From a virus: DNA of 31,410 nt. Position numbers and translations under genes: made by a program. This document shows positions 1 through 29,099 of this stretch, piece by piece. Position 1 is the first letter of the stretch. Every line of letters starts with the position of its first letter. The stretch is from positions 1-31,410 of IMG/VR virus record IMGVR_UViG_3300000116_000113. One strand, 5' to 3'. A model generated the notes under the pieces. It did not search any database and was not told where the DNA came from. It worked only from the letters and a program-made list of their open reading frames with translations.

Positions 1-233
1 CATAAGGACAGTTATTTTCCAGAAGTTACTTAAGAAGAAAGATCCTGAGTTTCTAGCTAAGGTCAACGAAAAGATGTCTAGCATTGGTACTCCTGAGACT
101 TGGGGTGCTAGATCTGACGGAAACATACTCAAGGGTATGCTAGATGATCTTAACCTAAAGAGAGCTGATACAAGAGGTATTCCTGTAAGTAAATTGCCTG
201 AACGTAGAACACTGCGTTTTGAAAAGGCCATGA
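1..233 (+). repeat. Direct repeat copy 1 (417-base tandem unit in tape measure gene)
   Basis: Bases 1-233 match 418-650 with only two differences that I can find (T116 versus C533, T148 versus G565). The offset is 417 bases, or 139 codons, so the frame is kept. The copy is cut by the window edge; its true left boundary and any further copies lie upstream. Confidence 0.95.
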
Positions 234-3200
234 GTAAAGGTTTGATACCTAACTATATGCCTAGGATTTATGCGCCAAGCAGTCCAATGAATATCGCTAG
301 GGCTCTTAAGTTTGGTGGCAGAACGGCGCTTAACTTGGATGTTGGTGGCGGTAGGAAGCTCAAAGAATTTTGGCATTCGTCAACTCCAGCATTAGCAACT
401 TCTACAGAGTTAGATTCCATAAGGACAGTTATTTTCCAGAAGTTACTTAAGAAGAAAGATCCTGAGTTTCTAGCTAAGGTCAACGAAAAGATGTCTAGCA
501 TTGGTACTCCTGAGACTTGGGGCGCTAGATCTGACGGAAACATACTCAAGGGTATGCTAGATGAGCTTAACCTAAAGAGAGCTGATACAAGAGGTATTCC
601 TGTAAGTAAATTGCCTGAACGTAGAACACTGCGTTTTGAAAAGGCCATGAATCAAGGATTAGTGCCAAACTATATGTTTGGAAAAATGAGAACTGTCGCT
701 CAAGCTGTAAAGCTATTTAAGAATGACACTTCGATGTTTTCCGCAGGGGCAGGAAAAAGATTTTGGAGTACGAGAGAAAATTCTATAAAATTAAAGCAAA
801 GCAATTATGAAGAGGTTAGACAGTTTATAAATAGCAAAAGTTTTAGATTATTAGACCCCAGAGAGCAAGATAGAGTAAGAAAAGATCTTCAAAGACAGTC
901 TGAAGATCTGAATATGAATGATGTCACTAGAGGCTATGCTCAATATGGAAAACCTGATTACAAAGGAAGGATACATGTAAGCAAAGGTTTAATACCAAAT
1001 TATAATCTAGCAAACAGAAAGATTTTTTATTTAAAAGATGTTGAAGTTATAAGAAATCCTAATATTAAAGATTTAAGATCTTTAAGAAAAGATTTTGAAA
1101 AAGAGTATCCATTATCATCTTGGAGTGGTGGAGACCCCAAGACAAGATTTACAGTTGATACTGACGGAAATAGATATATTTGGCCCTCTCATGCGGGAAT
1201 GCATTCATATGTAGAACCACTTTTACAAAGAAACATAAAAAAAGATGTTAGTCAAACTTTCTCAAGTTCTCATAAATATAATGCAGGATTAATACCCAAC
1301 TATGCAAAACTAATGTCTGGGCAGGCTAAAAATATTCTACAAAAAAGCCCAGAATATTCTGGTGCAGTATTAGATGCTGTAAAGCGAGAGGCTTCATTTG
1401 GTGTTACTCCTAAAGTTGTAGCGGCCCCTTCCCTTAAAAGCTCCACGAACCCAGGACTTGCAGTTGTAAATCAAGAACAAGAAGGGGGCTCCTTGGCTAA
1501 AGCGCGAGTTCTTCATGGGGGTTTAAACCCAAAACAAAGTTCGTCAGTTCCTAATTATGCATTGACTGGATCTGAAGTTTTAAATATTCAATATGGAGCA
1601 CAACAGGGCAAATCTCAATTAGGTTTGACTGCCATGGAACAGTCTTTTTACAAAGCTAAAGATGCTATTGACCTTCTTAGTGTTAGTGCGGGAAAAGGCA
1701 GAGATGCTTTGGAAAAAATTGCAAATAAATATGCAAGAAGCAGTCAAATTGCAACCGAATCAAATTTAAGATATGCAGCACAATTAGGGAAGCTCGAAAA
1801 AGAAAGTCCAAACCGACAAGCATTCGCAAGGCAAATGTATAGGAGAGAAGCTCTTCAAGATATGGCTAGCGGGGGAGGAAGAGATGCATTGTTAGCCCAA
1901 AAACTCTCTAAATCAAGCGATTTCGAAGAATCTATTCTTGAACAAAAACAAATAGCAAAAAGAGCTGGAAATAAAGAGTTAACTAATTCTTTAAATAGAA
2001 TAGATAGAAATCTCGATAAGAGTGCTACTCAACTAATGAATCAACCCAAAACTATAGCAAGAAGTTTGGAGACAAATCTAAAAAAAGATGCTATATCAAT
2101 GGCAAGATTGAATCAATTCACGACAAAAGCAGAAGGGTTTGATAAAAATAAATCTAGGCAATTTTTTGCAAGGCAGTTCTTGCAAGAAAGAGGGGTAGAT
2201 GTTCAGGATAAACAACAGGCTAATTCTATCATTGCATCCATGGGAAAACAAGGACAAAAAGAATTGTCTAAATTCATGGAGAAGCAAGGTGTAACATCAT
2301 CTAATGCTGTGTTAGCTAGGGCTGGATTTGCTTCAGGAGAATTAAGAAGTTTAGCTCCAACTCAAAGTAGTACTTTCGTCAATGGATTTAAAAGATTAGA
2401 AACAGCACTTAAATCAACATCATTTAAAGACAGATCGATTGGATCTAGACAAATAATTCGGGAGATGAGAAGTGAGGCATTGAGAATAGGGAAAGATAAT
2501 GCTGCTGTAACCGCTTTAAATCAAAAAATCTCTGATTTTGCAAAAAGTGTAAAATTGAGCAGATCCCAAACCAACACAGTTAGTGCGCAAAATTCTGCCC
2601 AGCAAAGAATTAGTAGAGCAGGCGGAGGATTTGGAGGAGCCATGGAAAGACTCAAAGGTTCATTTCAGATGGGGGCAGCTGGTGGTAGAAATTATACCCC
2701 AGGATTAGCAGGAAAAATAGCTGGCAGTGCTGGTAGATTTGGCAGTTTTGCTGGGGATTTAGGTAAAAATTTTATGTCTAGGGGTGTCGGAGGTTTCGGG
2801 GGTCAAGTAGGATTAGGCATGTCTTTTATAGCTCCAATGGCTGCTGGGATGATTCAAGACCCAAAAAGTAGAATAGATAGAGCCACAATGCAAGATGGTA
2901 GTCTAACAGTTGCTGGAACTTCAAGCATAGGCGATAGGGATGTAATGTCTTCAGTATTAATGGGGACGGGCATGGGGGCCATGTTTGGGCCAGGAGGGGC
3001 ATTGATAGGTGCAGCAACTGGTTTTGTTGCCGCAATGAGAAAAACGACACTGAGTCTAGAAGAGCAAGTTCAATTAAGAGAAAAAGAAATAGCCTTAATA
3101 GGTCAAAATTTACAGGCAGTAGGAAGTGTTCAAAACATGTCAACTGCTAGAGTTCAAGCATTTCAGTCAGGCAATCAAGATGAAGTTAATAGAATTGATG

Positions 3201-6200
3201 CGGCCATAAATCAAACATTAGCCACAATCAATGACAAGGAAATTTTAGAACAGGTATCTAATGCTGCTGGCGACGAAAATGCATTATCTAAAGTAGAAAA
3301 AATATTACAAGACAGAATGTCTGTAGCTACTAGTGGTCAAAATTTTGCAATGGCCATGAAAAATAATAATGTACAAAATGCTGGCGTAGCAGTTGGATCA
3401 ATAATCGCACAAAATATAAGAAGTGGTCTTGTCGATTCCAATGCAGCAAAAGACGCCTTAAGAAATATAACCAGTAATGTTGCGCAAAGAAGAAAGTCTG
3501 GAGAATTATTATCTGTAGAAAAAATGTCAAGCCTAAGAGCAACCGCTCAAGGTCAAGGAAATTTAATTTTTGGAGATAATACTACATGGAAAAAGGTCGG
3601 AACTGGAATTGGAGTTGCAGCTGGTCTTGCTGTAGCAGGTTTGTTGGCTCCAATTACAGGAGGAGCAAGTTTGGTTGCAGGCGCTGGCTTGCTTACTGCA
3701 GTGGGAGGAGGGGCAGCTTTAGGGTATACAGGTGGATCTATGATGGATCAAGATGCAGCTCAAACTAAATTAAACGAAATGGAAGAGCTTGGTGTTAACG
3801 AGTTAAAAGAATTCGAAAAGTTAGTTGATGCTGGAGCCATGACTGAAAGAACTTTGGATTTCATGATAGCGGCTTTTAATAAAGGCACCATGGGTATTGA
3901 TGAAATAGCAAAAGAAGCCTTAAAGTCAGTAGAGAATTTCGAAAAGATACAAAAAAATTCTTCAAAAACGGCAACCCAGTTATTTAATTTAGATAAAAAA
4001 TTTAAAACTGCAATCAGAAGTTTGGTTAAAAACATGGAGATTGATAAAATTGAAACTACAAGCGAGATAAATAGACAGAGATCTACAGCGAGCTTCGTTT
4101 CTCAATTTATGGACAGAAGATCCTCTACGGATTTTATGTCAAAACAACAGTCCAGTATAATGTCAGAGGAGATAGCATTAAGCTTAAGACAGTTTACTCA
4201 AGAAAGCTCAGCGCAAATGATGCGCGATATAAAAGCAAAGGGAAAATCTTTAAATTTAATGCCCAGTCAAACAGAGGGTTTGATTGATTTGATTCAGTCT
4301 CAAGGAAATGTAGGCTTGCAGAAAATGATTAACAAAAGACAGGTAGAAGGTCAATACAATTTAACTTTAAACAGAGAAGATATATCAAAAATCTTTCAAG
4401 AGTCAGGTTTGAGTGACGGTGGACAGGGTATAGCCCAAATAAATGACACCAATAAACTTTCAGGTTTACTAGGGACTAACGACAAGAACCAACAACTTAA
4501 TATAATTTCTGATTTACAAACTAATTTAGGTCAAGTCATGGAAAAAGGCTCAATGAAAGTTACTTTCCAGAAAGATTTAACTCAACAAAATGCTGATGTG
4601 CTTCAAGAACTGATTGATGACAGAAACACTCAGAAAGAAATACTTCAAGCACAAATAGAGGCTCAGAAAAAGGCATTAGAACTACAAGTTGCTCAGAATA
4701 AAATTCAATCAGAGATAGAAACTAATCTCAATTCAATAATGCGTAAGGCTGCAAATAGGGCCGAACAAAGAGACATAGACTTATTGGAGGAACAAGCTTC
4801 AACAGGAAGAAACATATCAAGATTGGAGTTTCAAAAATCTGACATATTTAAAGGTTTTAATACAAAAGAAGAAGAAGACGACAGACAAGCAGGAATAAGA
4901 CAAAAGATTTTTGATGAAGAATTAAAAATCAAGAAACAAGAAGATTTAAATAGCCTCAAGATGGAAGGTATCAGACTTCTTTCAGAAAAAAACCTTGTTG
5001 ACGCTTTAAATAATTTATCTTCAACGATAGAAAAAGATTTAAATTTAGACGGCAAAGAAACAGATTCTTCCGTGGTAACTGTAGATTCGTCCTCAACAGC
5101 AAAGCCAGAAAGGGGCAGTGCCGCAAGACAGTTCCTTCAACAGCATGCTCCTCATTTAATAAAAGATAAAGTTATGGAGGGTGCAACTAAAGCTCCAAAT
5201 TTTGTTCCACAGAATGAACAGAATAAAAAAATACAAGAAAGAATAAAAGAGAGATCTTTAAAAATTACAGATCTTACACAAACTGCAAATCAAACAACCG
5301 TCAACATAGAAAAAGCTGCGAGTTCAAAAGACGCAATGAATTCTCAAATAAGTGCATTAAAAGAAGCTAGATTGCTTTTAAGCGAGGGCGACAGAACGGG
5401 AGCAGAAAAAATACTAAATAAAGCGGGCAGAAAAGATTTAACTACCTTAAGAGAAGTTGATACGGTAAGTAAGTATACTGGAACTAATGCGTGGGAAGGT
5501 ATATATGGTGCACCTAAATTTTCAAATAGAAAAAAGCCTGTAGATAAAACTTTGATGCAAAAATTGAATGCAGATATTTCAAATAAAGAAGCTATATTCA
5601 ATCAAAGAAATCAAGCATTGAATGACTTTTTATTTCAAAGACAAAAATTAGAAGAATTAATAAGAGAGGAAACAACAGAGATAGAATCTTTGGAAGAGCA
5701 AAAAATTCAAAAATCTACTTTACCACAGGAAATACAAAAGAAAACTATATCTTTAGAAAAATATAATTTAGCAAATACAGAAGCAGCAATGCAATTATTA
5801 GAAGAGAGTTCAAGTATAGATGCCGCTGAACAATCTTTTCAAGCAATGCTTGCGGAAGCAAAACAAAATAACGAATCAGATGAAATCATAGATACCATTG
5901 AGTCTATGATACTATTGGTCAAAAAAACAAGAGCAGGTCAAAAAGCTTTTGCAGACTCTTTTCAACTACAAGAAGTCCAACAAAAAGTTGACAATTTTGT
6001 GGGAGGACTAAAATTTAATCAATATGCTGGAGGAACTATAAGCGAGTTCAATAATCTGGAGCAGCTAGATGTGCCTAAACAAGCAGCGGCCAATGCCTTG
6101 CAAAGTGCTTTAGCTCAAGACCAGAGAGAGAAATCATACGAAGTATTAATGGCAGATCCAAGTGCAACTAATTTAGAAAGAGCGGAAGCTAGGCTCGCTA

Positions 6201-7813
6201 AAAATGCAGCATCATTTGGTACTCAAGGCCAAAGAGAACAGTTCAAGGGTTTGGTGAACGAAAGAAGTCAGAAAATTTCTGCACTAGAACAAGCTCGATC
6301 CACTGGAGCTTCTCCCGAAGCAATAGCAAATTTAGAAAATTCTTTATTGCAATTAGATGATACCATGAGAGATGTAGCCTTAGAGATGTCTCGCAGCACT
6401 AGCAGGGGAAGTGAACCTGCATTTTCCGCGTTTAAGTCCGACATGACCGACGGACTTCAAGCAGGCTTTGCTGATGTTCAATCTAGGGCGGAAGGGATAT
6501 ACTCCAGACTTGGGAGGGATTTACCAAATGCTTTTCATCAAGGTATGGTACAAGCCATGGAAGCGGCAATTATGGGTGCAGATGACATGGGGGATGTATT
6601 AAATAATATAGGTCTTAGTTTTCTCCAGATCATACAAAGAGCTTTTCTTGAAAGTGCTGCTGCAAGAATGATGGGAGTATTCGGATTTAATAGTGGGGGA
6701 TATGTAACTGGAGGCAGTGGGACAAGAGATGATGTGCCTGCAATGCTAACAGGAGGAGAGTTTGTTATGAGGAGGAGTGCTGTAGAAAAATACGGCACTC
6801 ATTTCATGCATAATTTAAATGCTGGCACTGTGCCTGGTTTCTCGGAAGGGGGCATGGTTAACTTAAACATCAAAGGGCCTAGGGCTGCAGTAAGAGAAGA
6901 ATATGAAGATAAAAATGATTACGGGAGTGTAACTCGATACAAAACTATAAACAAGGGAAGAGGCATTGATCGCAGACTTTCTGGATATGCAATTGCAAAC
7001 GATAGGCAGGTACAACAATATTTCAGAGATCAAGAAACTCAGTTTAATGAAGATCTTGGAACTGGAAGACAAGAAAGATACAGAACTGCATACGAAAAAG
7101 CCGCCAAAGAGAGGGAGGCTAAAATGAAAGCACAGCAGGAAAAACAACAAAAAGATATGTGGAAAAACATGCTTATAGGTATAGCGGCAGCTGCAACAAT
7201 ATCTTGGGGGATGGGGAAAATACAAAATTGGTACAAGGGTACTGAATTTGCACAAAATAGGGCAGCTAAAAAACACCAAAAACAGTATAAAGACAAAGGT
7301 TTTGTAAATGTAAAAGGAAATAAAGGGTTTAGTTCAAAAATTAGCCCAGACGACGAAATGCAAACTAAACATTTCTTCGACAGAATGAACTTTCATGAAG
7401 GTCCAGTCACAACAGCCAATGAAATAAACAAAGCTAACCTTAATGCTAAAGTTGGAAAAAGTGCTATTACATGGGAGGGTTACGAAGGAGGTCAAGTTCC
7501 TAAATCAAAAAGCTCGCAAAGGGGAGTTGGAAGCATGCTGAGTGCTGGAGAATATGTAGTAAGTCCTTCTGCGGTGCAGGCATATGGAACCACAATGATG
7601 AACCAAATTAATAATGGAGCTATGGCTGTTCCTTCAAGTTCAGGAGGAACAAATGTAACCCATGGAGATGTTAATATAAACATTAATGTAAGCTCTAATG
7701 GTCAATCATCTGGGGAAGGAAAGAATGCTCCAGACAATTTCGCTAATAAAGTAAAATCTGCGGTAATGGGAATAATTAAAGAAGAGAAACGACAAGGAGG
7801 CTCTTTAAGGTAA
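2..7813 (+). CDS. Tail tape measure protein (lambda H-like), 5' end outside window
   Basis: This protein should span the tail lumen, set tail length during assembly and leave with the DNA at infection. The frame is open from base 2; the Met codon at 74 lies inside a repeat, so the true start is upstream. At least 2603 residues are present. Numbering from Met74: about 1-500 is a string of units closed by GLIPNY-like motifs at 56, 195, 305, 405 and 490. The middle is helical and rich in Gln, Lys and Glu, with coiled-coil-like sequence near 1520-1580. Glycine-rich hydrophobic segments lie near 900-985, 1178-1225 and 2365-2382. Two copies of a module typical of tape measure C-termini (Gly-Gly, then a GEFV or GEYV box and an A-V-x-x-Y-G stretch) lie near 2208-2262 and 2470-2516. 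Size, composition, these modules and the M-L-K-I-J genes downstream make the call firm. The role of the N-terminal units is unknown. Confidence 0.93.
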   Translation: MRTVIFQKLLKKKDPEFLAKVNEKMSSIGTPETWGARSDGNILKGMLDDLNLKRADTRGIPVSKLPERRTLRFEKAMSKGLIPNYMPRIYAPSSPMNIARALKFGGRTALNLDVGGGRKLKEFWHSSTPALATSTELDSIRTVIFQKLLKKKDPEFLAKVNEKMSSIGTPETWGARSDGNILKGMLDELNLKRADTRGIPVSKLPERRTLRFEKAMNQGLVPNYMFGKMRTVAQAVKLFKNDTSMFSAGAGKRFWSTRENSIKLKQSNYEEVRQFINSKSFRLLDPREQDRVRKDLQRQSEDLNMNDVTRGYAQYGKPDYKGRIHVSKGLIPNYNLANRKIFYLKDVEVIRNPNIKDLRSLRKDFEKEYPLSSWSGGDPKTRFTVDTDGNRYIWPSHAGMHSYVEPLLQRNIKKDVSQTFSSSHKYNAGLIPNYAKLMSGQAKNILQKSPEYSGAVLDAVKREASFGVTPKVVAAPSLKSSTNPGLAVVNQEQEGGSLAKARVLHGGLNPKQSSSVPNYALTGSEVLNIQYGAQQGKSQLGLTAMEQSFYKAKDAIDLLSVSAGKGRDALEKIANKYARSSQIATESNLRYAAQLGKLEKESPNRQAFARQMYRREALQDMASGGGRDALLAQKLSKSSDFEESILEQKQIAKRAGNKELTNSLNRIDRNLDKSATQLMNQPKTIARSLETNLKKDAISMARLNQFTTKAEGFDKNKSRQFFARQFLQERGVDVQDKQQANSIIASMGKQGQKELSKFMEKQGVTSSNAVLARAGFASGELRSLAPTQSSTFVNGFKRLETALKSTSFKDRSIGSRQIIREMRSEALRIGKDNAAVTALNQKISDFAKSVKLSRSQTNTVSAQNSAQQRISRAGGGFGGAMERLKGSFQMGAAGGRNYTPGLAGKIAGSAGRFGSFAGDLGKNFMSRGVGGFGGQVGLGMSFIAPMAAGMIQDPKSRIDRATMQDGSLTVAGTSSIGDRDVMSSVLMGTGMGAMFGPGGALIGAATGFVAAMRKTTLSLEEQVQLREKEIALIGQNLQAVGSVQNMSTARVQAFQSGNQDEVNRIDAAINQTLATINDKEILEQVSNAAGDENALSKVEKILQDRMSVATSGQNFAMAMKNNNVQNAGVAVGSIIAQNIRSGLVDSNAAKDALRNITSNVAQRRKSGELLSVEKMSSLRATAQGQGNLIFGDNTTWKKVGTGIGVAAGLAVAGLLAPITGGASLVAGAGLLTAVGGGAALGYTGGSMMDQDAAQTKLNEMEELGVNELKEFEKLVDAGAMTERTLDFMIAAFNKGTMGIDEIAKEALKSVENFEKIQKNSSKTATQLFNLDKKFKTAIRSLVKNMEIDKIETTSEINRQRSTASFVSQFMDRRSSTDFMSKQQSSIMSEEIALSLRQFTQESSAQMMRDIKAKGKSLNLMPSQTEGLIDLIQSQGNVGLQKMINKRQVEGQYNLTLNREDISKIFQESGLSDGGQGIAQINDTNKLSGLLGTNDKNQQLNIISDLQTNLGQVMEKGSMKVTFQKDLTQQNADVLQELIDDRNTQKEILQAQIEAQKKALELQVAQNKIQSEIETNLNSIMRKAANRAEQRDIDLLEEQASTGRNISRLEFQKSDIFKGFNTKEEEDDRQAGIRQKIFDEELKIKKQEDLNSLKMEGIRLLSEKNLVDALNNLSSTIEKDLNLDGKETDSSVVTVDSSSTAKPERGSAARQFLQQHAPHLIKDKVMEGATKAPNFVPQNEQNKKIQERIKERSLKITDLTQTANQTTVNIEKAASSKDAMNSQISALKEARLLLSEGDRTGAEKILNKAGRKDLTTLREVDTVSKYTGTNAWEGIYGAPKFSNRKKPVDKTLMQKLNADISNKEAIFNQRNQALNDFLFQRQKLEELIREETTEIESLEEQKIQKSTLPQEIQKKTISLEKYNLANTEAAMQLLEESSSIDAAEQSFQAMLAEAKQNNESDEIIDTIESMILLVKKTRAGQKAFADSFQLQEVQQKVDNFVGGLKFNQYAGGTISEFNNLEQLDVPKQAAANALQSALAQDQREKSYEVLMADPSATNLERAEARLAKNAASFGTQGQREQFKGLVNERSQKISALEQARSTGASPEAIANLENSLLQLDDTMRDVALEMSRSTSRGSEPAFSAFKSDMTDGLQAGFADVQSRAEGIYSRLGRDLPNAFHQGMVQAMEAAIMGADDMGDVLNNIGLSFLQIIQRAFLESAAARMMGVFGFNSGGYVTGGSGTRDDVPAMLTGGEFVMRRSAVEKYGTHFMHNLNAGTVPGFSEGGMVNLNIKGPRAAVREEYEDKNDYGSVTRYKTINKGRGIDRRLSGYAIANDRQVQQYFRDQETQFNEDLGTGRQERYRTAYEKAAKEREAKMKAQQEKQQKDMWKNMLIGIAAAATISWGMGKIQNWYKGTEFAQNRAAKKHQKQYKDKGFVNVKGNKGFSSKISPDDEMQTKHFFDRMNFHEGPVTTANEINKANLNAKVGKSAITWEGYEGGQVPKSKSSQRGVGSMLSAGEYVVSPSAVQAYGTTMMNQINNGAMAVPSSSGGTNVTHGDVNININVSSNGQSSGEGKNAPDNFANKVKSAVMGIIKEEKRQGGSLR
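239..1561 (+). repeat. Five GLIPNY-type protein motifs closing successive tape measure units
   Basis: The motif G-[LS]-[IV]-P-N-Y, or the looser S-S-V-P-N-Y-A, is encoded at 239-256, 656-673, 986-1003, 1286-1303 and 1541-1561. The intervals are 139, 110, 100 and about 85 codons. The sequence before each motif differs, except for the duplicated first unit. This suggests different small domains joined by one conserved linker or recognition motif. I recall similar PNF/PNY motifs in large proteins of uncultured phages, but cannot name a described family. Confidence 0.75.
418..650 (+). repeat. Direct repeat copy 2 (417-base tandem unit in tape measure gene)
   Basis: Second copy of the segment at 1-233. 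Identity stops at 651, just before the GLVPNY motif, so the two copies lead into different downstream units. One of the two differences is silent and the other changes Asp to Glu, which indicates recent duplication or ongoing gene conversion. Confidence 0.95.
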
Positions 7814-10412: not shown

Positions 10413-11321
10413 ATGGCATATAGTAAACCACAGAAAATTAACGAAGAACTTTTTCAATATAGCAAAAATCAAGTTATAGAACTATTTGAAATATCAGATA
10501 TAAGAGGGGATAGTTCGTCTATTTATTTTTATGGAGGAATCAATAATTTCAATGAAGGTATAATTTTTGATGGAAAAACTTATATATATCTTCCGTTTTC
10601 TGGTGAGGATTTTGCTACTAGGGGTGATGGAAAAATGAATAGGCCGAAAATAAAAATCATAAACCACTTAGGACTTTTCTCGAAATATATAAAAAATAAA
10701 GACGACCTTTTAAGGGCAAGGGTTCACAGGACAAGGACATTTGTTAAATTTTTAGACAAAGAAAACTTTTTGAACTTTGATGAAGATTATGAGTATTGGT
10801 ATAATTTAGGTATAGATCCAGATCCTAGTGCTATAATTAAAAAAGAAACATGGTTAATAGCGCAAAAAATAAACGAAAATAAAAATTACATTGAATACGA
10901 ATTAGCCAATGCTCTTGATTTAGATAATATAACATTACCTAGAAGAAAAATAATCAATAATTATTGTTCCTGGAAATATAGAGGTTCCCAATGTGGTTTT
11001 ACTGGTCCGCCCATAGCTGACAGTAATAATGTTAAATTTGAAAACTCCATGGTAGACAGAGGTGAGTGGGTGGCTGGAACAAGTTACACTCAAGGAGATT
11101 TTGTATATTTAATAGTTGAGGATGGCGTAAGTTTTAGGCCTTTAGTTTTTGTTGCAGCAAAAGATCATACATCATCTCAGTCTAATAGGCCCACTCTGGA
11201 TAATAGAACATGGTTAAAGGATGAATGTTCTAAAAATTTAAATGGATGCAAAATGAGGTTTAAGGGGGCTCCTAACGAACCTTTGCCGTTTGGAGGCTTT
11301 CCTTCTAGTAGGTTATTTTAA
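10413..11321 (+). CDS. Minor tail protein L-like with four-cysteine Fe-S motif
   Basis: A 302-residue member of the lambda L family, a tail tip protein. Four cysteines, Cys185, Cys194, Cys272 and Cys279, sit in the family context: Asn-Tyr-Cys before a Tyr-Arg-Gly-x-x-Cys-Gly-Phe stretch, then Cys-x-x-x-Leu-x-Gly-Cys-x-x-Arg-Phe, and a final Leu-Pro-Phe-Gly-Gly-Phe-Pro. In lambda L these cysteines bind an iron-sulfur cluster. Between the two pairs, about residues 216-268, lies an insert with the Trp-x-x-Gly-Thr-x-Tyr-x-x-Gly-Asp-x-Val and late Trp pattern of CBM5/12-type carbohydrate-binding modules. The upstream gap is 22 AT-rich bases with no Shine-Dalgarno sequence. The next gene starts one base after the stop. 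The family call is firm; the sugar-binding role of the insert is inference. Confidence 0.9.
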   Translation: MAYSKPQKINEELFQYSKNQVIELFEISDIRGDSSSIYFYGGINNFNEGIIFDGKTYIYLPFSGEDFATRGDGKMNRPKIKIINHLGLFSKYIKNKDDLLRARVHRTRTFVKFLDKENFLNFDEDYEYWYNLGIDPDPSAIIKKETWLIAQKINENKNYIEYELANALDLDNITLPRRKIINNYCSWKYRGSQCGFTGPPIADSNNVKFENSMVDRGEWVAGTSYTQGDFVYLIVEDGVSFRPLVFVAAKDHTSSQSNRPTLDNRTWLKDECSKNLNGCKMRFKGAPNEPLPFGGFPSSRLF

Positions 11322-11322
11322 A

Positions 11323-11745
11323 GTGGAAAAGTATAAAAAATGTATAAAAGATATTATATCAATATCGGAATCTAAGCCTCAAGAAGAATCTTGCGGATTT
11401 ATTGTTTTGACTAAATCAGGCCCATTTAGCATTGAGACTCGAAATCGAGCACCCAGTAAAGAAAAAAAGTTTTCTATTTCGCCTCTAGACTTTGTTAAAG
11501 CTAAGAAAAAATGCCATTCAATAATTTCAATTTTTCATTCTCATAGTCTAGGCGATGAAAATCCATCTGAATTGGATTTAAGAATGACAGAGGAATTGAG
11601 AATACCTTTTGTTATTTATAGTTTGATAACAAAAAAAACTAGGTTAATTTCGCCAAAAGGTATGCAAAGTAAAAATTTGCACCTAAGGAGACTGCATCAG
11701 GCCATTAAAAAGTGTAATAATAACTTTAAGGAACATGTGGAATGA
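11323..11745 (+). CDS. JAMM/MPN metallopeptidase, K-like, without NlpC/P60 domain
   Basis: A 140-residue protein if it starts at GTG 11323, one base after the L-like stop with AGTAGG at 11307-11312 upstream; a TTG at 11290 is possible but would overlap. The zinc peptidase signature is intact: Glu22 in a Glu-Glu-Ser-Cys-Gly-Phe stretch, His72-Ser-His74, then Ser82 and Asp85 with the classic seven- and two-residue spacing. In lambda, K carries this domain plus a C-terminal NlpC/P60 cell wall hydrolase domain; here the protein ends after the JAMM fold, so any wall hydrolase must be elsewhere. Gene order between L-like and I-like supports the K assignment. The likely role is a processing or wall-related step in tail tip function. 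The last four bases overlap the next gene. Confidence 0.85.
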   Translation: MEKYKKCIKDIISISESKPQEESCGFIVLTKSGPFSIETRNRAPSKEKKFSISPLDFVKAKKKCHSIISIFHSHSLGDENPSELDLRMTEELRIPFVIYSLITKKTRLISPKGMQSKNLHLRRLHQAIKKCNNNFKEHVE

Positions 11746-21248: not shown

Positions 21249-21431
21249 ATGAATATAAAAGAATTACCTGATCAGCAAATTAAAGCATTATTGTATGATT
21301 TATTCATGGAGAAAAAATTATTAAAAAATAATATTAAAATTCTACAAAGAGAAATCACACAAAGAGAAGAATCAAAAGTAAGTCAAAAAAAATCTATAGA
21401 AACAAAGAAACAGGAGAAGGATGCCTCTTGA
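21249..21431 (+). CDS. Small helical protein of unknown function
   Basis: A 60-residue, Lys- and Gln-rich protein predicted to be almost all helix, with a heptad-like spacing of Leu and Ile over about residues 10-38 and no Cys, Trp or signal peptide. It lies in the only gap of the J region and its last 11 bases overlap the start of the next gene, so the two are probably translated together. The gene's own start has no Shine-Dalgarno sequence. Small helical proteins before a large fibre-like gene are sometimes assembly chaperones or trimer adaptors, but nothing in the sequence proves this. It may also serve mainly to couple translation. I do not recognise a family. Confidence 0.6.
   Translation: MNIKELPDQQIKALLYDLFMEKKLLKNNIKILQREITQREESKVSQKKSIETKKQEKDAS
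21412..21416 (+). promoter_or_regulatory. Strong ribosome binding site, AGGAG
   Basis: AGGAG at 21412-21416 lies four bases before the ATG at 21421, followed by AAGG, and is inside the preceding small gene. It fixes the start of the 1421-residue protein and is one of the few clear Shine-Dalgarno sites in the window. Confidence 0.7.
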
Positions 21432-24400
21432 TGGACAAATATACTGGAACGGATTTTCTCCTTCGGTTTTTGCAAAACCAGGAGAGGGGGAATTTACAGC
21501 TTTTCAGGATGTAAGATTTGGCCAGACAGAAACTGAAGATAGTCATAGCTCTTTTCGTTTCAGTGGAAAAAGGCGAGAGCGAATAGCAGATTTCTCTCAA
21601 TTAATGCATAGAGACAATAGAGGTCTATTTGATGTAATTGATAATGAAAACTCTTTGATAAATACTTGGTATGGAACTAATTACACTGCGGCATGTACAT
21701 ATTCTTGGCCAGGATTTGATGGTTATGGAGATCAATTAAATGATGAAATAACACATAGCGATATTAGTAATGTATTTAAAGACGGTGGTACTGAAGCAGA
21801 CTTGGAGGCGTCCAAAAATAGAGAGAGTTGCCACTGGCTTTCGAATGTTGCTTTAATGCAAACAATAGATCATCCATTTATAGGAATACATGAAGAAAAA
21901 CCATTGACACTTAATATAACAAAAAATTATGCTGGTTTTTATTTAGTATTAGAAAGAATAAGACATCAATATAATGAACTATATATTCGCCCTGTACACG
22001 CTCAAATATTTAATAATTATTTAGACGGAGAAGCTCAGGCCGTAAAGGATTTTTACAGCGGAACATTTCCTGAAAAGTTTGATTGGTTGAATTATTATTC
22101 ATGGGGAGAATTAGGTGGAAGTGTCATGCTGGGCTACAATTTCTTACCTTGCGATCACGAACTTTTCACTGGAAAAAAAGAAGTTTTTAAAGGGGCTGAT
22201 GGAGTAGTAGGAACAGCAGACGATAATAATAATTTTAATTTTAATACTTCCAGAATATTAAGAATTAATGATTTTGATAGTGGAGGTAATTTTAAAGGAT
22301 TTTCTATACAATCTGTTTTTAAAGATAAAATACCAGCATTGTTTTTAAGGGACGAATATGATAAAGGCACAATGGATTGGACTGTAGGGCAGCAGTCTGT
22401 TTTTATCAATCCAAATGGAGAAGATTATGTTAGATATTCAGAACCAACAGAAACTATATATTACTATTGGGTAAGAATGGCTCCACCGTTTTGGGTATAC
22501 GCAACATATGGGTCAGAATATCATATATATGCAAATCTAGAAATGGATACAAATTTCAATCCTGCTGAACCAAGAGAGTCTCAAATAACTAAAAACAGAT
22601 ACGAAGCACTTGGCAATAAATTTGAATTAGAATATGCGGAAGATCTTTATAACAACGGAAGCACAATGGACGAAATCAAGGAATTAGTGCAGGGAGAAAA
22701 TGATACAGTTCTGTTTACCCAAGAGGAGGCGAAAAACTATGGTCGAGCAGCAATGCTCATAGCATATAAGGGACATAACGGATACAATAATGCGGCACAA
22801 CTGGATGCAGGTGACCCTGGATTGTTCGGAGATGCAAAAGCTTACGGTAGGGCCCCATTCAATGGAATAGTAAGACAAGTAACCAATAAAAGGTTTTTGC
22901 ATGAGTATAAGACTCCTACGATGAACGATTGGGAGGTGACTCCAAGAAGTGGAAGAATCGTTTTTGAAAATCCTTTTTATTATACAGACTTTCATTACAG
23001 ACAAGATTTTGGTGATGACGATACAACCAATGGAATCGAAAATACTATTGGGGTTGTTAGGTTTTATAATAGTAGACAAGCAGGAGCTGCAGATGGATCC
23101 AAAGATAAAGTATCAACTTATCCAGTCAAAGATGCAGTTATACATCCTAGATATAATAGAAAATTAAGAACATACACAGGTTCAATTTTGCTAAAAAATA
23201 TGACAATTAAAATTGGCGGTGATGTGATTAAGGCCGAGAATGATGCCAGAGGAAAATTTAATGAGATGTCAAACATCCAAATTTTCAATGGTGAAAATAA
23301 AAAAGATAAACCAATAGTAGCTAATGGCGCTAAAAATCAAAAAAATGTTACATTTTCAAACCTTTATTCTTATGCGAATTCAATTGATCATTATATAGAC
23401 AGCAGTTTTGAAATAGAATTTGAAGGAGATGATAATAGATATACAATAGATTCTGTATCTACATCACAGATAACTTTAAACGAAAATTTATCAAAAGCTT
23501 TATCTTCAAGTAATTTTACATTATTTATACCAAGAGGGTCGAGGGATCCAAATTACACATGGGGCAATTATAAATTAGAAAAATTTTATGATTCTTGGAA
23601 GCAGGAAGTTTGGCCTAAACAAAGTATAAGGAGGTATGATTTTATTGATGGAAATTGGACTAGAGATCAAATTATAGAGAGTTCTAACCCATATGATGAT
23701 TCATGGGAAGGAGAGAGAGCATATAGATGTGCGCAATCATTTACATCATACAGAAATGATTATTTCTTTAACACAAACGAGTCTTTAAGGCAAAATTACC
23801 AATATAACGAGGTGAGCAAAACCAGTTACTGGATGGATAGTGCCGACGACTCATTTCGGCATGAGCTATTTGATACAACAGCAAATGATTCTAGATGCTT
23901 AACAGATATATATGATGATCTTGCAGGCGGACAAAAAGATGGAATTAGAAAAATGCCCAAGAGACATCCTTTCTTTGCGAATGAATTCACAGAATCATTA
24001 ATGATAGATTACAACTATCACGGAATAGCTTACTGGGAAAGAATGGTTCCTCAGGCCGTAAACGGGGCATGGGGAGGAGTTTCTTCAAAAATACCCAAGA
24101 GAGATGAGATTGTTTTTGATGGTAGTGAACGTCCAATGGATGTCAGCTGGGATGCATGCAGTTGGGTTAGATATTTTGAAAAGATAAAGACTAAATGGCG
24201 CACTGGCCCTGCTGATTTAAATTTAGTAGCTTACTTGAAAGAAAATGCTCCAGAGATATGTCCATGGGAATGGTTTATATGGTTCGCTGAACCGATTTCA
24301 TTTACAGACATATCAACAGAGAGAAATAATTCTAACTTCGAAAACATGTACGAAAATCAACTAGCATCAATATGGGGTGATAAAAATAATAGAGGAGAGG

Positions 24401-25686
24401 TTGTTGATCTTAGAGTAAATGAATTTGTATGGGGAGGATTAGATGCGGCTTCATCAGCGATTTGGCCAAACTACAAAAATAATGTAGCTTTTATAAGTCC
24501 TAGATGGTTTAATTATGGAATATCAACTTACTACAGCGGTTTTTCCAGTGAAATTCAGGAAGCTTATCCCAATAATACACCATTAGGTAATGAACTAGAT
24601 AAAGCATGGTTTTCTTTTTGTGCGGCAGAAAAAGACCCCACAATGTTCAGAATATATACTATGCCTGAAGCCTATCTTCTATACCCAATGGCATGGATGT
24701 ATGCAGGGGCTGATAATCCTATGAATTTTAGCGGTACATTAGGAGATGTTCATAAAATTGATGACAGGTTAGTAGAAGAATGGGCTAGTGATTGCTGGAC
24801 AAGTGCGACAAACAAAGTTGATTATACGAGTGTTAGCATAGGCTCTGTTAAAGCTAGCGGCACATCAGGAACTAAAACGGTAACATTAAGTAATAATATA
24901 TCCTCAATACAAGATAAAAGTAAAACAAAATATTTTACATTTGTTTATAGTGGTGTGGAGTATGATATAATAACAAAGTCAGGAAACAAACTGACACTTA
25001 ACAAAAACTTGAATTCGACATTTAACAATACATCCAGTTTTGGTATTCGAAACAAAAAAATGCCCACACAGCAAAATTTAGACCAGCGAGATGTTGTAAA
25101 ATCAAGAAAAGATTATTGGGAAAGAGTTTTATATACAAAAAGCAAAAAAAATTTATTGCACCCCTGGTGTTTGGCTCAATATGGATACGACGCAGACCTG
25201 CTTGGAATTTTGAGTCTTTATGCATCTAGCGAAGATACTGGGGCAAATGCTTGGTATGGAAACGAAAGAGAAGCTAGAAAATATGGAGTTCCTCATTTCC
25301 TTACAATATATGAATCTGATGAAATATTAAGTAGGGGATCAAAAATAGAGGTAATGCTTCATCAAGCTGGATGCCCATTCAATCAAGAACTATTAGATGA
25401 TAAAGGGGATGCTATAGAAGAAGAAATTTTAATAGGACATGGTAGGAGTACTTTACCATGTGATACTTATAGGTTATATATTGTTGCAAAATATCAAGTA
25501 GATTCTAAAGAATTCGCTGAAGTTAGTCGAGAAGAAGATAACAGGAGTGATCAATCTACTGAAAATGCTGCAGACTATAAAACTGATGTAAATGAGTTCT
25601 CTGTGGATCGTGATGGATCGGTCGACACACTGGACGAACAAAAACAAATTCCAAATGATTATGATGAAGATACTGACTATACCTAA
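21421..25686 (+). CDS. Large unrecognised protein, probably virion structural
   Basis: A 1421-residue protein rich in Trp, Tyr, Asn and Asp, with no signal peptide, membrane segment or catalytic motif that I recognise. Two stretches of about 60 residues, near 632-708 and 1148-1213, look like copies of one beta domain: Val-x-Ala-x-Gly, Lys-x-Val-Thr-x-Ser-Asn, a Tyr-x-Ile strand, then Leu-Asn-x-Asn-Leu. A Trp-rich patch lies near 940-965 (Cys-Pro-Trp-Glu-Trp-Phe-Ile-Trp-Phe). The last 40 residues are strongly acidic. It lies between the J-like gene and a fibre-bearing region on the same strand, so a tail fibre, tip accessory or receptor-binding role is the best guess. A polysaccharide-active enzyme cannot be excluded. 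Its stop is 12 bases from the stop of the opposite-strand gene. Confidence 0.6.
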   Translation: MPLDGQIYWNGFSPSVFAKPGEGEFTAFQDVRFGQTETEDSHSSFRFSGKRRERIADFSQLMHRDNRGLFDVIDNENSLINTWYGTNYTAACTYSWPGFDGYGDQLNDEITHSDISNVFKDGGTEADLEASKNRESCHWLSNVALMQTIDHPFIGIHEEKPLTLNITKNYAGFYLVLERIRHQYNELYIRPVHAQIFNNYLDGEAQAVKDFYSGTFPEKFDWLNYYSWGELGGSVMLGYNFLPCDHELFTGKKEVFKGADGVVGTADDNNNFNFNTSRILRINDFDSGGNFKGFSIQSVFKDKIPALFLRDEYDKGTMDWTVGQQSVFINPNGEDYVRYSEPTETIYYYWVRMAPPFWVYATYGSEYHIYANLEMDTNFNPAEPRESQITKNRYEALGNKFELEYAEDLYNNGSTMDEIKELVQGENDTVLFTQEEAKNYGRAAMLIAYKGHNGYNNAAQLDAGDPGLFGDAKAYGRAPFNGIVRQVTNKRFLHEYKTPTMNDWEVTPRSGRIVFENPFYYTDFHYRQDFGDDDTTNGIENTIGVVRFYNSRQAGAADGSKDKVSTYPVKDAVIHPRYNRKLRTYTGSILLKNMTIKIGGDVIKAENDARGKFNEMSNIQIFNGENKKDKPIVANGAKNQKNVTFSNLYSYANSIDHYIDSSFEIEFEGDDNRYTIDSVSTSQITLNENLSKALSSSNFTLFIPRGSRDPNYTWGNYKLEKFYDSWKQEVWPKQSIRRYDFIDGNWTRDQIIESSNPYDDSWEGERAYRCAQSFTSYRNDYFFNTNESLRQNYQYNEVSKTSYWMDSADDSFRHELFDTTANDSRCLTDIYDDLAGGQKDGIRKMPKRHPFFANEFTESLMIDYNYHGIAYWERMVPQAVNGAWGGVSSKIPKRDEIVFDGSERPMDVSWDACSWVRYFEKIKTKWRTGPADLNLVAYLKENAPEICPWEWFIWFAEPISFTDISTERNNSNFENMYENQLASIWGDKNNRGEVVDLRVNEFVWGGLDAASSAIWPNYKNNVAFISPRWFNYGISTYYSGFSSEIQEAYPNNTPLGNELDKAWFSFCAAEKDPTMFRIYTMPEAYLLYPMAWMYAGADNPMNFSGTLGDVHKIDDRLVEEWASDCWTSATNKVDYTSVSIGSVKASGTSGTKTVTLSNNISSIQDKSKTKYFTFVYSGVEYDIITKSGNKLTLNKNLNSTFNNTSSFGIRNKKMPTQQNLDQRDVVKSRKDYWERVLYTKSKKNLLHPWCLAQYGYDADLLGILSLYASSEDTGANAWYGNEREARKYGVPHFLTIYESDEILSRGSKIEVMLHQAGCPFNQELLDDKGDAIEEEILIGHGRSTLPCDTYRLYIVAKYQVDSKEFAEVSREEDNRSDQSTENAADYKTDVNEFSVDRDGSVDTLDEQKQIPNDYDEDTDYT

Positions 25687-25698
25687 GATTAATTATCC

Positions 25699-26850
25699 TT
25701 AGCAGCCGTTATCTTCATCATAACAATCTGATTGAGTCTCTTCATTTGGATTTTCTTCAGCCTCGTCATCGTACATATCATTGTTGTTATTCGTATCATC
25801 CGCACAAGGAGCATCACAGGTTGCAGTTTGTTCTCCAGATGCTCCATGGGCACTTCTCCCAGGATAATACATAACTCTTTCTTTAAGGGTGCCTGGATTT
25901 AATAAAGGAAAATCAAAAGCCGTGTAACCTTGAGGTTGGTCATATTGTATATTTCTCATTGCATCAGCAATATCTTTAGGATTAGGCTCGTAAGACAGCC
26001 CCTTTTTAAGATTATTTCTAGGATTTTGATCAAATAAACTTTGTATAGAGATCATGTCAATTGTATTTCCGCAAGCATAAAAATCTTTTTCGTCTGTGAC
26101 ATGTCTAAACCCATAAGTGGTTCTAGTGAAATCTTTAAGCCCTTCAGGGGTCTTATGTCTAATTATTCCTTGAGGTTTTTTGCCTGGTTGATCTTTCTTT
26201 CTATGAAAATTTTTCATATAATTTTTAAGATAAACCTTTCTTCCATTATCAGTATTTTTCCAGTCAAGATCTAGGGCAGCTCCTCTTAATGCAGTACTAA
26301 TAGAAGATTGAATTGCATTATCATAAACATCCTCTTGAATAGTTCTTCCATTTTTGATTTTATATATCCTAAACTTTGTATTAATTGGGTTGCCTCTACA
26401 TGCAATTTGATTGCCAAAGCCTTTGTAAGTATCAGATCCTGACCTTATTGTCAAGCAAATTCTAAAGAAAAAAACCTCTCCTTCTTGCAACCCAGAAACT
26501 TTAAATTTAATATTCTTGTCGTTCCAATCTGTCAAGGGAGAAACTTCGGCAATACTATGGTATTCTAAAGCATTTTTAAAATTCGAACCTGTATAAGTTA
26601 TATTCCAGTGCAATGAAAAATCACCCTGATCGTAACTTGTTCCAGGTCCTAATATATTTCCTAAATAACCCCCTGAGCTCCTTGAGCCAAATCCGCTTGA
26701 ACTAGAATCACTGTTAAATGTTTGATATCCATCCATGTTTATGCCCGCTCCTATTTCTGTAGTAGGCACTATGGCAACACTGTCATGATCTTTAAGTGTT
26801 TTATAAAGAGATGAGTCTACGACTATATATTTTGTTGGATGTCTTGCCAT
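25699..26850 (-). CDS. Unrecognised protein with fibronectin-like domain and Cys-rich acidic tail
   Basis: A 383-residue minus-strand protein, the second gene of a two-gene unit; its ATG is two bases after the upstream gene's stop. Residues about 48-62 are Ser- and Gly-rich. Residues about 78-145 look like a fibronectin-III-type sandwich, with His-Trp-Asn-Ile-Thr-Tyr and then Val-Ser-Gly-Leu-Gln-Glu-Gly-Glu-Val-Phe-Phe-Phe-Arg. The middle is basic and mixed, and I see no catalytic motif. The last 45 residues are packed with Asp, Glu and Asn and hold four Cys, ending in Asp-Asn-Gly-Cys. A metal- or disulfide-stabilised tail is possible. The setting suggests a virion surface or accessory tip protein, but its function is unknown. 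Confidence 0.6.
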   Translation of the reverse strand: MARHPTKYIVVDSSLYKTLKDHDSVAIVPTTEIGAGINMDGYQTFNSDSSSSGFGSRSSGGYLGNILGPGTSYDQGDFSLHWNITYTGSNFKNALEYHSIAEVSPLTDWNDKNIKFKVSGLQEGEVFFFRICLTIRSGSDTYKGFGNQIACRGNPINTKFRIYKIKNGRTIQEDVYDNAIQSSISTALRGAALDLDWKNTDNGRKVYLKNYMKNFHRKKDQPGKKPQGIIRHKTPEGLKDFTRTTYGFRHVTDEKDFYACGNTIDMISIQSLFDQNPRNNLKKGLSYEPNPKDIADAMRNIQYDQPQGYTAFDFPLLNPGTLKERVMYYPGRSAHGASGEQTATCDAPCADDTNNNNDMYDDEAEENPNEETQSDCYDEDNGC

Positions 26851-26852
26851 GA

Positions 26853-29024
26853 TTATGTCTCCTGATCAAATTCAACAGTCCATCCTCTTTCCTCTAATCT
26901 TGCAAAACCACTCAAGCAATTATCATTTACATCAGGTAATACATAAGTACCTTCGGGTACTTGACCTCCATTAGAAGCTTTTATCGCATTAAGATACAAG
27001 TTTCCTCTAAATCCATTTGAAAATACTGGATTTCTTGGACCAGATCTCGTTCGTTGATTTTTACATTTAAAGATGCCGTTTGGTTGTTTGCTATAAAGTG
27101 CAGTTTTAATAAAACTGTAGATTCCTGTTTGGTCTAAAAAATTCCTACATATATTAATATATCTTACATTTGGACCATGAAATGGCATAAAATCATATCT
27201 AGTTAGCATCTGATGGTCTGTATCAAGCTTTAAGTCATCAGGGTCATAAGATCTTAGATAGCTTGGTATAGTAGTCCTCAAACAGTCTTGAGCTCTTATT
27301 ATGTTCAATTGCCTTCTTGGGTGATTGTATATTCCAGAAAAAAAGATTTCTGGAGGTCCATCTGGATATTTTGAAGTTGGATATTGATATGGCCTCCATT
27401 TTGGAATACTTGTTCCATTTGACAAGGGTATATATTGTAAATCCATTTCTCCCGTTGGAGCTCCACAAATATGGTATTGATTAGGGTGCTCCAAGCTGGT
27501 GCCAGAGATGGTTATTTCATACAGGCGGTCTAAATCTGGAGCGAGAAACAATTTTTCAAAATTAGGGCACTGTGCTATTCTTATTGCCTGTAAGTCGAAC
27601 TTAGATTTCCTGTATGCATAAGGAGGTATCCTGAATCCTGAAAGTGATGGATTGTTAAATATTCTAACCGAATTAACACTGTGCCTTCTTGGGTGAATAT
27701 ATGCATTAGGAGCACCGCACCAAAAATAGTTTTCTTCATTATACCCGTCCAAATCTGGAAAATGCTGCCGTAATGGTGAGGGGTTTGATATTCCAACGAG
27801 AGCATCCTCACCAGTCCAGTATGTATAAATCGCTTTAGGGCATGGATCTGGAGATATAGGATCTATCGTATGCCATTTAGGAAAAGACGTTAAGGGGAAA
27901 ACTTCTTTCGCTCCAGTTATATGAAATTCAGTTAAATGATCGAAATGAGCTGGATTATTATCAAATAAATACTGTAATTGACAATATTGTCCAAATAACT
28001 GGTAATTATAGAGTAATTGAAATGTATTTGCTGTAGTGCCGTACGAAAATTGTCCATCAAGTTGAGGAGCTCTGTTTGTTACTGGGTCTCTCAAAGCTGC
28101 TTTGTTATCAAGTATGCGAATTGATGGATATTTAACTCTACCATCAGTTAAATCATAAACATATTTATTTACATTACCATGATAAATGCCTGGGGTAAGA
28201 AGATTAAATCCCCTGTAAGTGGCCTTAACTCTTCCAGTTCCAGTAACAGTATACTTCAAGACATGTTGTGAAGGCAAATCTCTAGCACCAGTAAAACCGC
28301 TTAGAGTTCCGCTAATTAATCCAGTGTGAGATTGGTGTTTTATGTACAATGGGTTTTCATTGCCTCCAACTTGATTTGCTTGTATAGTAAATGGTCCAAA
28401 ACTATCTCTAATTATGTCTCCTACTGGAGAAACAGAATATCCACTTACACCTGAAATTAAATCATTATCTATTATGGTTTGAATCTCTTTGCAGCCATAC
28501 CAGTATCTTATAGGCCTTGAGACTTTCTCTCCTTCTTCTGGGTGATTGTATCCAAGGCTGTATACGGATCCAGTAAAAGGAAATAGATGTTTACTTTGAT
28601 TTGTATTAGCTTTTGTTAATGAGGCATAACCACCAGTAAATACAACATGACTTTCTCTGTAAGCTTGAGTTGTTGGACTAAAAAAATCTCTTCTAGGTTG
28701 GTAAATTTTAGTCCTAAGCATGTCGTATGGATCATTCTCATGAACAGTTTCCTTTGACGGCAGTTCTGCGTTGGGGTTATCAATCAACCTTGCACCCCTA
28801 GAATATTCAGTCCAATCCTGGCGCTCAACAAACCTGGCATCATATTGTAGTCCAAATTTTTCAGCAACGGCTCTGGCATATAAATTTGGAGTTTGCTGAA
28901 GCATCTTTAAGGTTACAGCATCGCCAGTTGAAGTCCACGTATTTGTATTAGTCGTGACTGAACCTTCGCCTGGTGTTAGCGAACCTCCTCCTATAAGGAT
29001 ATTACTGGTATCATTATCCGACAT
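26853..29024 (-). CDS. Leucine-rich-repeat-like protein, probably virion or surface binding
   Basis: A 723-residue protein. The ATG at 29024 is chosen; a TTG at 29060 would add 12 residues but lies in the regulatory region. The N-terminus (about 1-40) is Thr-, Ser- and Gly-rich. The C-terminal half has irregular leucine-rich-repeat-like segments: near 445-511 with Val-Arg-Ile-x-x-Asn-Pro-x-Leu, Ile-Arg-Ile-x-x-Cys-Pro-Asn-Phe and Ile-Thr-Ile-Ser-Gly-Thr-Ser-Leu, and near 673-719, ending in Leu-Glu-Glu-Arg-Gly-Trp-Thr-Val, a cap style seen in BspA-like repeats. Two segments share a Tyr-x-His-Pro-Arg-Arg motif followed by Asn and Arg-Ile or Arg-Ala. There is no signal peptide or membrane anchor, so export by a host pathway is unlikely and a virion part is more plausible. 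The repeat call is moderate; the function is inferred. Confidence 0.6.
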   Translation of the reverse strand: MSDNDTSNILIGGGSLTPGEGSVTTNTNTWTSTGDAVTLKMLQQTPNLYARAVAEKFGLQYDARFVERQDWTEYSRGARLIDNPNAELPSKETVHENDPYDMLRTKIYQPRRDFFSPTTQAYRESHVVFTGGYASLTKANTNQSKHLFPFTGSVYSLGYNHPEEGEKVSRPIRYWYGCKEIQTIIDNDLISGVSGYSVSPVGDIIRDSFGPFTIQANQVGGNENPLYIKHQSHTGLISGTLSGFTGARDLPSQHVLKYTVTGTGRVKATYRGFNLLTPGIYHGNVNKYVYDLTDGRVKYPSIRILDNKAALRDPVTNRAPQLDGQFSYGTTANTFQLLYNYQLFGQYCQLQYLFDNNPAHFDHLTEFHITGAKEVFPLTSFPKWHTIDPISPDPCPKAIYTYWTGEDALVGISNPSPLRQHFPDLDGYNEENYFWCGAPNAYIHPRRHSVNSVRIFNNPSLSGFRIPPYAYRKSKFDLQAIRIAQCPNFEKLFLAPDLDRLYEITISGTSLEHPNQYHICGAPTGEMDLQYIPLSNGTSIPKWRPYQYPTSKYPDGPPEIFFSGIYNHPRRQLNIIRAQDCLRTTIPSYLRSYDPDDLKLDTDHQMLTRYDFMPFHGPNVRYINICRNFLDQTGIYSFIKTALYSKQPNGIFKCKNQRTRSGPRNPVFSNGFRGNLYLNAIKASNGGQVPEGTYVLPDVNDNCLSGFARLEERGWTVEFDQET
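26858..26863 (-). promoter_or_regulatory. Ribosome binding site, AGGAGA (minus strand)
   Basis: AGGAGA, read on the minus strand, lies seven bases before the ATG ending at 26850 and inside the last codons of the upstream gene. It supports that start and shows the two minus-strand genes are translated from one message. Confidence 0.7.
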
Positions 29025-29049
29025 TATACAATAAAAAGCTTTGTATAAT
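29023..29049. promoter_or_regulatory. Inverted repeat ATTATACAA / TTGTATAAT at divergent start
   Basis: Bases 29023-29031 and 29041-29049 are exact inverted copies, nine bases each, around a nine-base loop. Each arm contains a TATAAT in its outward orientation, and the left arm covers the start codon of the leucine-rich-repeat-like gene. It could be an operator or an RNA hairpin that hides that start. Confidence 0.5.
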
Positions 29050-29099
29050 ATTACACTCAATGTTAATTAATTTCTAATTAAGTGTAAAGATTATATGTA
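29025..29099. promoter_or_regulatory. Divergent regulatory region
   Basis: This is the only place in the window where two genes start back to back, so both promoters should lie in these 75 bases or in the adjoining gene ends. Besides the inverted repeat at its left end it holds a second perfect one, TTAATTA at 29063-29069 and TAATTAA at 29075-29081, with a five-base loop. On the minus strand TTTACA and TAACAT are spaced by 17 bases, a fair match to a sigma-70 promoter. On the plus strand TTGTAT and TAATTA are also spaced by 17, a weaker match. Neither downstream gene has a Shine-Dalgarno sequence. Confidence 0.5.

Follow-up and report, generated by a model that had tools for sequence, protein, structure and literature searches.

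What function a string of dissimilar units, each closed by the same short peptide, performs in a tape measure protein (TMP) is the question raised by a 31.4-kb fragment of an uncultured virus (31,410 nucleotides, hereafter the window). The ORF at positions 2-7813 codes for 2603 residues of a TMP and is open at its 5' end, the contig starting inside the TMP gene. The preliminary description of this sequence had placed the string at the N-terminus of the protein and had considered it either as cargo domains sent into the cell with the DNA or as domains released by a protease at the motif.

The assignment of this ORF as a TMP gene is based on its great length, its position 5' of the tail tip genes L-K-I-J, with lambda-like L, K and I genes downstream, and its similarity to annotated TMPs, the C-terminal region resembling the TMPs of cultured phages. 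The closing motifs and unit lengths listed in Table 1 are those given in the preliminary description, although only the first four motifs conform to the form G-[LS]-[IV]-P-N-Y claimed there, the fifth lacking the Gly. The units had also been said to differ in the rest of their sequence; this is correct except for units 1 and 2, since nucleotides 1-233 and 418-650 differ at two bases, with 7 further differences in the final 26 nt, which span the motif. Unit 1 thus represents the final part of a tandem copy of unit 2 and not a separate kind. As the contig starts within the repeat, an assembly effect could account for the duplication; tandem or repeated units are also found in relatives (L043, L054 and L040).

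Table 1. Features of the TMP gene and of the tail module in the window
Feature	Position	Strand	Remarks
Unit 1, partial, 85 aa	2..256	+	C-terminal part of a cargo unit cut by the contig end; closes with GLIPNY (239-256)
Unit 2, cargo unit, 139 aa	257..673	+	Closes with GLVPNY (656-673)
Unit 3, cargo unit, 110 aa, predicted compact alpha-helical domain	674..1003	+	Closes with GLIPNY (986-1003)
Unit 4, cargo unit, 100 aa	1004..1303	+	Closes with GLIPNY (1286-1303)
Unit 5, constant closing unit of the array, 85 aa	1304..1558	+	Closes with SSVPNY (1541-1558)
TMP body (rod), 2084 aa	1559..7813	+	ORF residues ~2210-2290 similar to TMPs of cultured phages
Tandem duplication (1-259 versus 418-676) at the contig edge	1..676	+	Sequence repeat
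Lambda K-like tail protein, JAB domain only, without the NlpC part	11290..11745	+	PF14464, E 3e-6; phrog_30, E 7e-20

Homologues of unit 2 were identified in L007 (aa 642-790) and L005 (aa 635-783), with 51-52% identity to end-to-end units of other TMPs, and the unit 3 kind has nine members in diverse TMPs. The Asp-x-x-Gly-Asn-x-Tyr-x-Trp stretch noticed earlier in unit 4 (DTDGNRYIW...H) is conserved and forms part of the signature R-x-T-x-D-x-x-G-N-x-[YW]-I-W...M-H..V-E. The path NPGL...GGLNPK...PNYA of unit 5 is likewise conserved, the pattern of this unit being ..V.REASFG.TPKVV.APSLKS..NPGLAVVNQEQEGGSL..AR.LHGGLNP... It is located directly before the body in nearly every complete array, with 60-89% identity within the clade.

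When viral contigs were scanned with the string, with the closing unit and the GNAT-like unit described below, and with two forms of the fixed unit that follows the TMP head, one of them divergent, 107 non-redundant TMPs from uncultured phages were obtained, of up to 5192 residues. Their plan is constant: a head, a fixed unit of ~85 residues (80-90 aa) ending in the motif, a variable array, a fixed closing unit of 63-88 residues, corresponding to unit 5 of the window, and a rod-like body. The head comprises ~545-550 residues in complete relatives, and the first motif is located at residue 545 (median over the TMPs). In L004 the head matches PF10145 (E 1.6e-26); the corresponding part of the window protein lies beyond the contig end. 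The string is therefore not the N-terminus of the TMP, as had been supposed: the contig is truncated, and complete relatives extend ~640 residues further upstream, with a head of ~550 residues and an 87-residue unit. It is an internal array, present here without its head-side part.

No cultured phage was found by tblastn with several units and arrays, and a search of bacterial genomes by the same type of method produced no match for the fixed unit or unit 4. The phage SynMITS9220M01, reached through the C-terminus of its TMP, was considered as an array carrier and rejected, as it lacks the motif.

The units of an array end in the motif [SAN]-x-G-[FLHY]-[IV]-P-N-[FY], and the consensus over the cargo units extends by a following Ala. 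The window ORF contains four copies of G-x-[IV]-P-N-[YF] against 0.001 in shuffled sequences, and the TMP set contains 560 against 0.23. None of the related TMPs found lacks the motif. In TMPs whose closing unit could be located, the array accounts for 416 motif sites and the body for 7, and the head has none; the sites are irregularly spaced, at the unit ends. Six whole records of 60-180 kb each have all their matches in one stretch, the TMP array, which speaks against a general processing signal. Within the motif, the codons chosen for G, P, N, Y and F deviate little from those used in the rest of the genes; selection therefore acts on the peptide, and conservation as a DNA recombination site was rejected. 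A degenerate form, GFIPS[FY]A, occurs inside the long units of L079 (aa 1019-1530) and L171 (aa 1143-1691), which suggests fused or decaying unit borders. The long unit of L079 also holds a P-loop, GPSGVGKST.

The cargo units fall into 99 sequence kinds, 61 of which are singletons, while the common kinds occur in varying order beside many different neighbours. Local alignments between arrays stop at the motifs: 52% of their right ends lie within 5 residues of a motif, against 6% of random points. Arrays may carry different cargo even where the heads are 97-99% identical (e.g. L026/L028 and L076/L091). At the DNA level, pairs whose left flanks share at least 85% identity diverge between -8 and +1 nt relative to the end of the motif that closes the fixed unit; on the right side, identity in the best pairs sets in 6-17 nt ahead of the closing unit. 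The coincidence of breakpoints and alignment ends with the motifs indicates that exchange replaces whole units between motifs. A systematic study of mosaicism could confirm no genuine recent exchange of TMP domains (PMC10684548).

Structure models were obtained for units 3-4-5 of the window and for L105 (mean pLDDT 55, both partly confident). Unit 3 is predicted with confidence as a compact helical domain (pLDDT 79-92 over model residues 31-90), unit 5 is of moderate confidence, and confidence is low across the motif stretches and unit 4. The latter was modelled from a single sequence because multi-unit alignments misplaced short units. In the L105 model both fixed units are small folds predicted with confidence, and the motif lying between the first of them and the cargo is of low confidence. 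Neither model matched a PDB fold in a fold search. The content of W, H, P and Y also differs along the protein, being 9.7% in the cargo, 4.8% in the body and 1.7% in the head. The predicted architecture fits beads on a rod and no single continuous helical rod, low confidence being no proof of flexibility. The bead-like, modular character proposed earlier is thus upheld by the shuffling of whole units with borders at the motifs and by the compactness of the confidently predicted parts.

The relation of the array to the measuring function can be judged from lengths. In the clade of the window the body comprises 2103±46 residues (12 TMPs), whereas the cargo between the fixed units ranges from 505 to 1353 residues, a 2.7-fold variation (nine TMPs with both fixed units), so that cargo length does not trade against body length; the constant body is compatible with the role of the TMP in setting tail length. 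When all clades are taken together, cargo length rises with body length (r 0.75), and the statement that the cargo does not measure thus holds for the clade of the window alone.

Most cargo units match no known family, and the units of the window gave no significant match to Pfam or PHROGs; a few Pfam matches were obtained from the arrays scanned. All seven members of one kind (C8, absent from the window) match PF00583 (Acetyltransf_1) at E<=0.1, the best at 5.4e-5, and the R-G-x-G-Y-G acetyl-CoA binding loop is conserved. The GNAT profile is thus matched by the kind as a whole and weakly in any single sequence, the match falling below the Pfam cut-off in the one sequence for which the cut-off is shown. 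Its PDB matches, at weak E-values, are all acetyltransferases, except for one uncharacterized chain. A cargo unit of L108 (11453-13453) contains the nucleotidyltransferase-associated PF16581 above the cut-off (E 6e-8), and DUF7178 is significant in L028. Upstream of the PF16581 domain of L108:11453-13453 lies a P-loop-like sequence, GTAGIGKT. The frequent kind C4 resembles PD-(D/E)XK nucleases in its invariant residues E180, D200/D202 and D224-x-K226; a profile search of the PDB with this kind found no nuclease. Kind C11 has, by eye, the LYRG, conserved S and E-x-E of ADP-ribosyltransferases (ARTs), and profile tests of it were negative. Profile searches thus did not confirm the ART, kinase and PD-(D/E)XK assignments, the ART-like and kinase-like ones having been made by eye only. 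No hydrolase or lysin family was detected in the arrays scanned, nor any LPD-type polyvalent-associated Pfam domain in these or the window TMP, and of the HExxH of zincin-like metallopeptidases a single isolated instance was seen in the 107 TMPs. Judged by such sequence features, the cargo appears to include GNAT-like, nucleotidyltransferase-like and PD-(D/E)XK-like domains, some of them resembling enzymes.

Unit 4 of the window has relatives outside TMPs. It matches a domain in three giant non-TMP proteins, encoded in L124, L125 and L126, with 43-47% identity (E 1e-22 to 4e-15), and all three carry HExxH motifs. The protein of L126 is a polyvalent protein with LPD38, ART-PolyVal, LPD5 and LPD1 domains, whose relatives in Escherichia coli phages include some annotated as LPD5 proteins. 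The giants of L124 (4115-8908) and L125 (1648-6633), which combine a HELWH metallopeptidase motif with the unit-4-like domain and have no Pfam match, are probably unclassified polyvalent proteins.

An independent property of the cargo is its composition. The cargo units contain 2 Cys in 63,605 residues, where about 405 would be expected at the rate of neighbouring ORFs, and the 107 TMPs contain 10 in 287,048 residues, compared with 0.64% in other ORFs of the same loci. Cys is likewise absent from lambda gpH, N4 vRNAP (3500 aa), N4 gp51 and gp52, and T7 gp15 and gp16, and T7 gp14 has one; the proteins used as the yardstick of this comparison are ejected. The TMPs of Ares1, Nitrincola 1M3-16, WRP3 and Staley have no Cys and that of MiniMac has one, while neighbouring proteins that are not ejected mostly have several (6-11 in lambda J, L and K, N4 gp65 and primase, and T7 exonuclease). 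The three giant proteins related to unit 4 contain none in 6074 residues. Nearly Cys-free domains of 99 kinds thus follow the rule of tail-exiting proteins, which supports their packaging with the TMP. The absence of Cys indicates that the units share the constraint of their host TMP and is no proof that they reach or act in the cytoplasm.

These observations are probably best explained by a swappable cargo array that is built into the TMP, is packaged in the tail and is ejected together with the DNA, where we infer packaging, ejection and activity in the host. Between the constant unit after the head and the constant unit before the body, the TMP carries one to about ten independently folding, nearly Cys-free domains, which are gained, lost and swapped whole at the closing peptide, and the array would contribute nothing visible to the measuring body. 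TMPs fill the tail with the C-terminus anchored at the tip and are expelled before the DNA (PMC11445458, PMC8718954). The array-bearing TMP would likewise be packaged in the tail, and the cargo would leave through it with the TMP, before or with the DNA. In the host the cargo may act by acetylation, nucleotide transfer, nucleic-acid cleavage or otherwise. The earlier suggestion of cargo sent into the cell thus gains indirect support from the enzyme-like units, the kinship of unit 4 to polyvalent proteins and the near-absence of Cys. The array group is so far known from sequences of uncultured phages, and folded domains in multiple copies would be hard to fit into a narrow tail tube.

The role of the motif within such an array may be understood in several ways. 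Our guess is that it is a flexible joint recognised by a protein, as a site of cutting or docking; its position at unit borders and its selection as a peptide fit a cleavage site, a docking peptide and a structural joint equally well. In one reading the motif serves for docking or as a structural cap, contacting a tail chaperone, the tube protein or the adjoining domain, and the foreign domains are threaded through the tail uncut. The irregular spacing at unit ends, the constant flanking units and conservation at the peptide level agree with this; no partner was identified, and in the models the motif region is of low confidence and makes no visible capping contact. We regard this reading as possible rather than probable.

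We regard as somewhat unlikely the other reading of the motif, raised in part by the preliminary description, according to which the TMP is a true polyprotein cut by a protease between P-N-[FY] and A, in the particle or after entry, so that the units are freed as effectors. A near-invariant short peptide at every unit border, restricted to the TMP array and selected as a peptide, is what a cleavage site would look like, and its location in low-confidence, presumably flexible stretches would suit access. TMP cleavage during infection has been proposed for JBD30 (PMC11445458), and processing by metallopeptidases is envisaged for polyvalent proteins (PMC5512222). However, a candidate protease is hard to name: the prohead protease S78 was not found, a search for S77 was empty with the S77 control failing too, and HExxH occurs just once in the TMP set. 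The tail module of the window was seen to hold a single protease-like gene, that of the JAB protein, with one Prok-JAB match per record in five of five related records, but the family is also found in phages without the motif; as the motif protease it is conceivable but unspecific. Moreover, cutting before assembly would split the TMP head from the body. The fullest form of this idea, a programmable delivery polyprotein whose Cys-free cassettes are swapped at a nine-residue peptide without change of tail length, injected ahead of the genome and cut in the host at P-N-[FY], seems to us rather unlikely.

Other genes of the tail region deserve mention. The protein encoded at 30333-31409 of the window, cut by the contig end, contains tandem repeats of ~111 bp (...GNVSGNLSGTARYV..GVYTTGNQTI.GEKTF..) and BppL_N repeats. 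Two minus-strand ORFs of 383 and 735 residues with no family (25699-29060) interrupt an otherwise plus-strand tail cluster, and a tail-region protein of 1421 residues (21421-25686) has no Pfam match.

Instead of being host-directed effectors, the units could act in the envelope or the tail, in wall digestion, pore formation or as a plug. Known TMPs carry lysin domains (surveyed in PMC10194240), and a Cys-free composition also suits passage through the periplasm. The absence of hydrolase and lysin families from the scanned arrays speaks against this, and the signatures of GNAT, nucleotidyltransferase and nuclease-like type suggest substrates inside the cell, making such a role unlikely. That the array is a neutral mosaic, with the motif as a recombination hot spot and the units as drifting inserts devoid of function, would agree with the coincidence of breakpoints and motifs and with the many singleton kinds, but is very improbable given the near-background codons of the motif, which indicate no DNA site, and the retention of frame, conserved residues and near-absence of Cys in the units.

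The reading as an ejected cargo array has its closest parallel in the polyvalent proteins of phages and conjugative elements (Iyer et al. 2017, PMC5512222), which combine several unrelated enzyme-like domains in one giant protein, with a stock that includes ARTs, kinases, GNATs and nucleotidyltransferases, and are proposed to enter with the DNA. A relative of unit 4 stands beside the LPD domains of the L126 protein. Unlike these systems, the carrier here is a TMP and the cargo lies between fixed units with a uniform closing peptide. The array would work like a polyvalent-protein cargo system placed in the TMP, but the polyvalent features looked for, LPD and metallopeptidase domains, were not found in it. 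The term 'tape measure' is absent from the main text of PMC5512222.

Exchangeable functional domains are also known from the Sle1-type effectors of actinobacterial contractile injection systems, in which a TMP-related protein is packaged in a tail-like particle and a domain swap reprograms the effect (PMC13277306). These have one variable domain at the C-terminus, a partner, Sle2, and a bacterial origin, whereas the present array consists of multiple units, belongs to a phage with lambda-like tail gene order and is internal, being followed by a body of ~2100 residues. With the TP901-family TMPs (PF10145), which include TMPs with lysin domains, it has in common the PF10145 head of L004 and the lambda order TMP-L-K-I-J; it differs in its variable multi-domain array, in which no lysin was found. 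N4 vRNAP and T7 gp15 and gp16 are likewise large virion proteins that exit through the tail and have no Cys; they are separate internal proteins and not the ruler, and they lack a repeated closing peptide. No earlier description of the arrangement or of the motif was found in the literature searched. The arrangement itself is real and is often met in uncultured phages, and by this search it has not been described before.

TMPs are usually treated as rulers that also help to make the pore; here the ruler bears, at one fixed place, fast-evolving foreign domains punctuated by a motif. The motif and the constant flanking units provide a simple way to find such arrays. Near-absence of Cys could be used more generally to recognise virion proteins that are ejected, and where the function of a protein is unknown the Cys test offers an independent means of checking for ejection. 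If the domains are delivered, each virion of this group would inject a tailored protein set at the very onset of infection, and the arrays would represent a reservoir of enzymes for host takeover and counter-defence, as well as a natural guide to loading cargo into phage tails.
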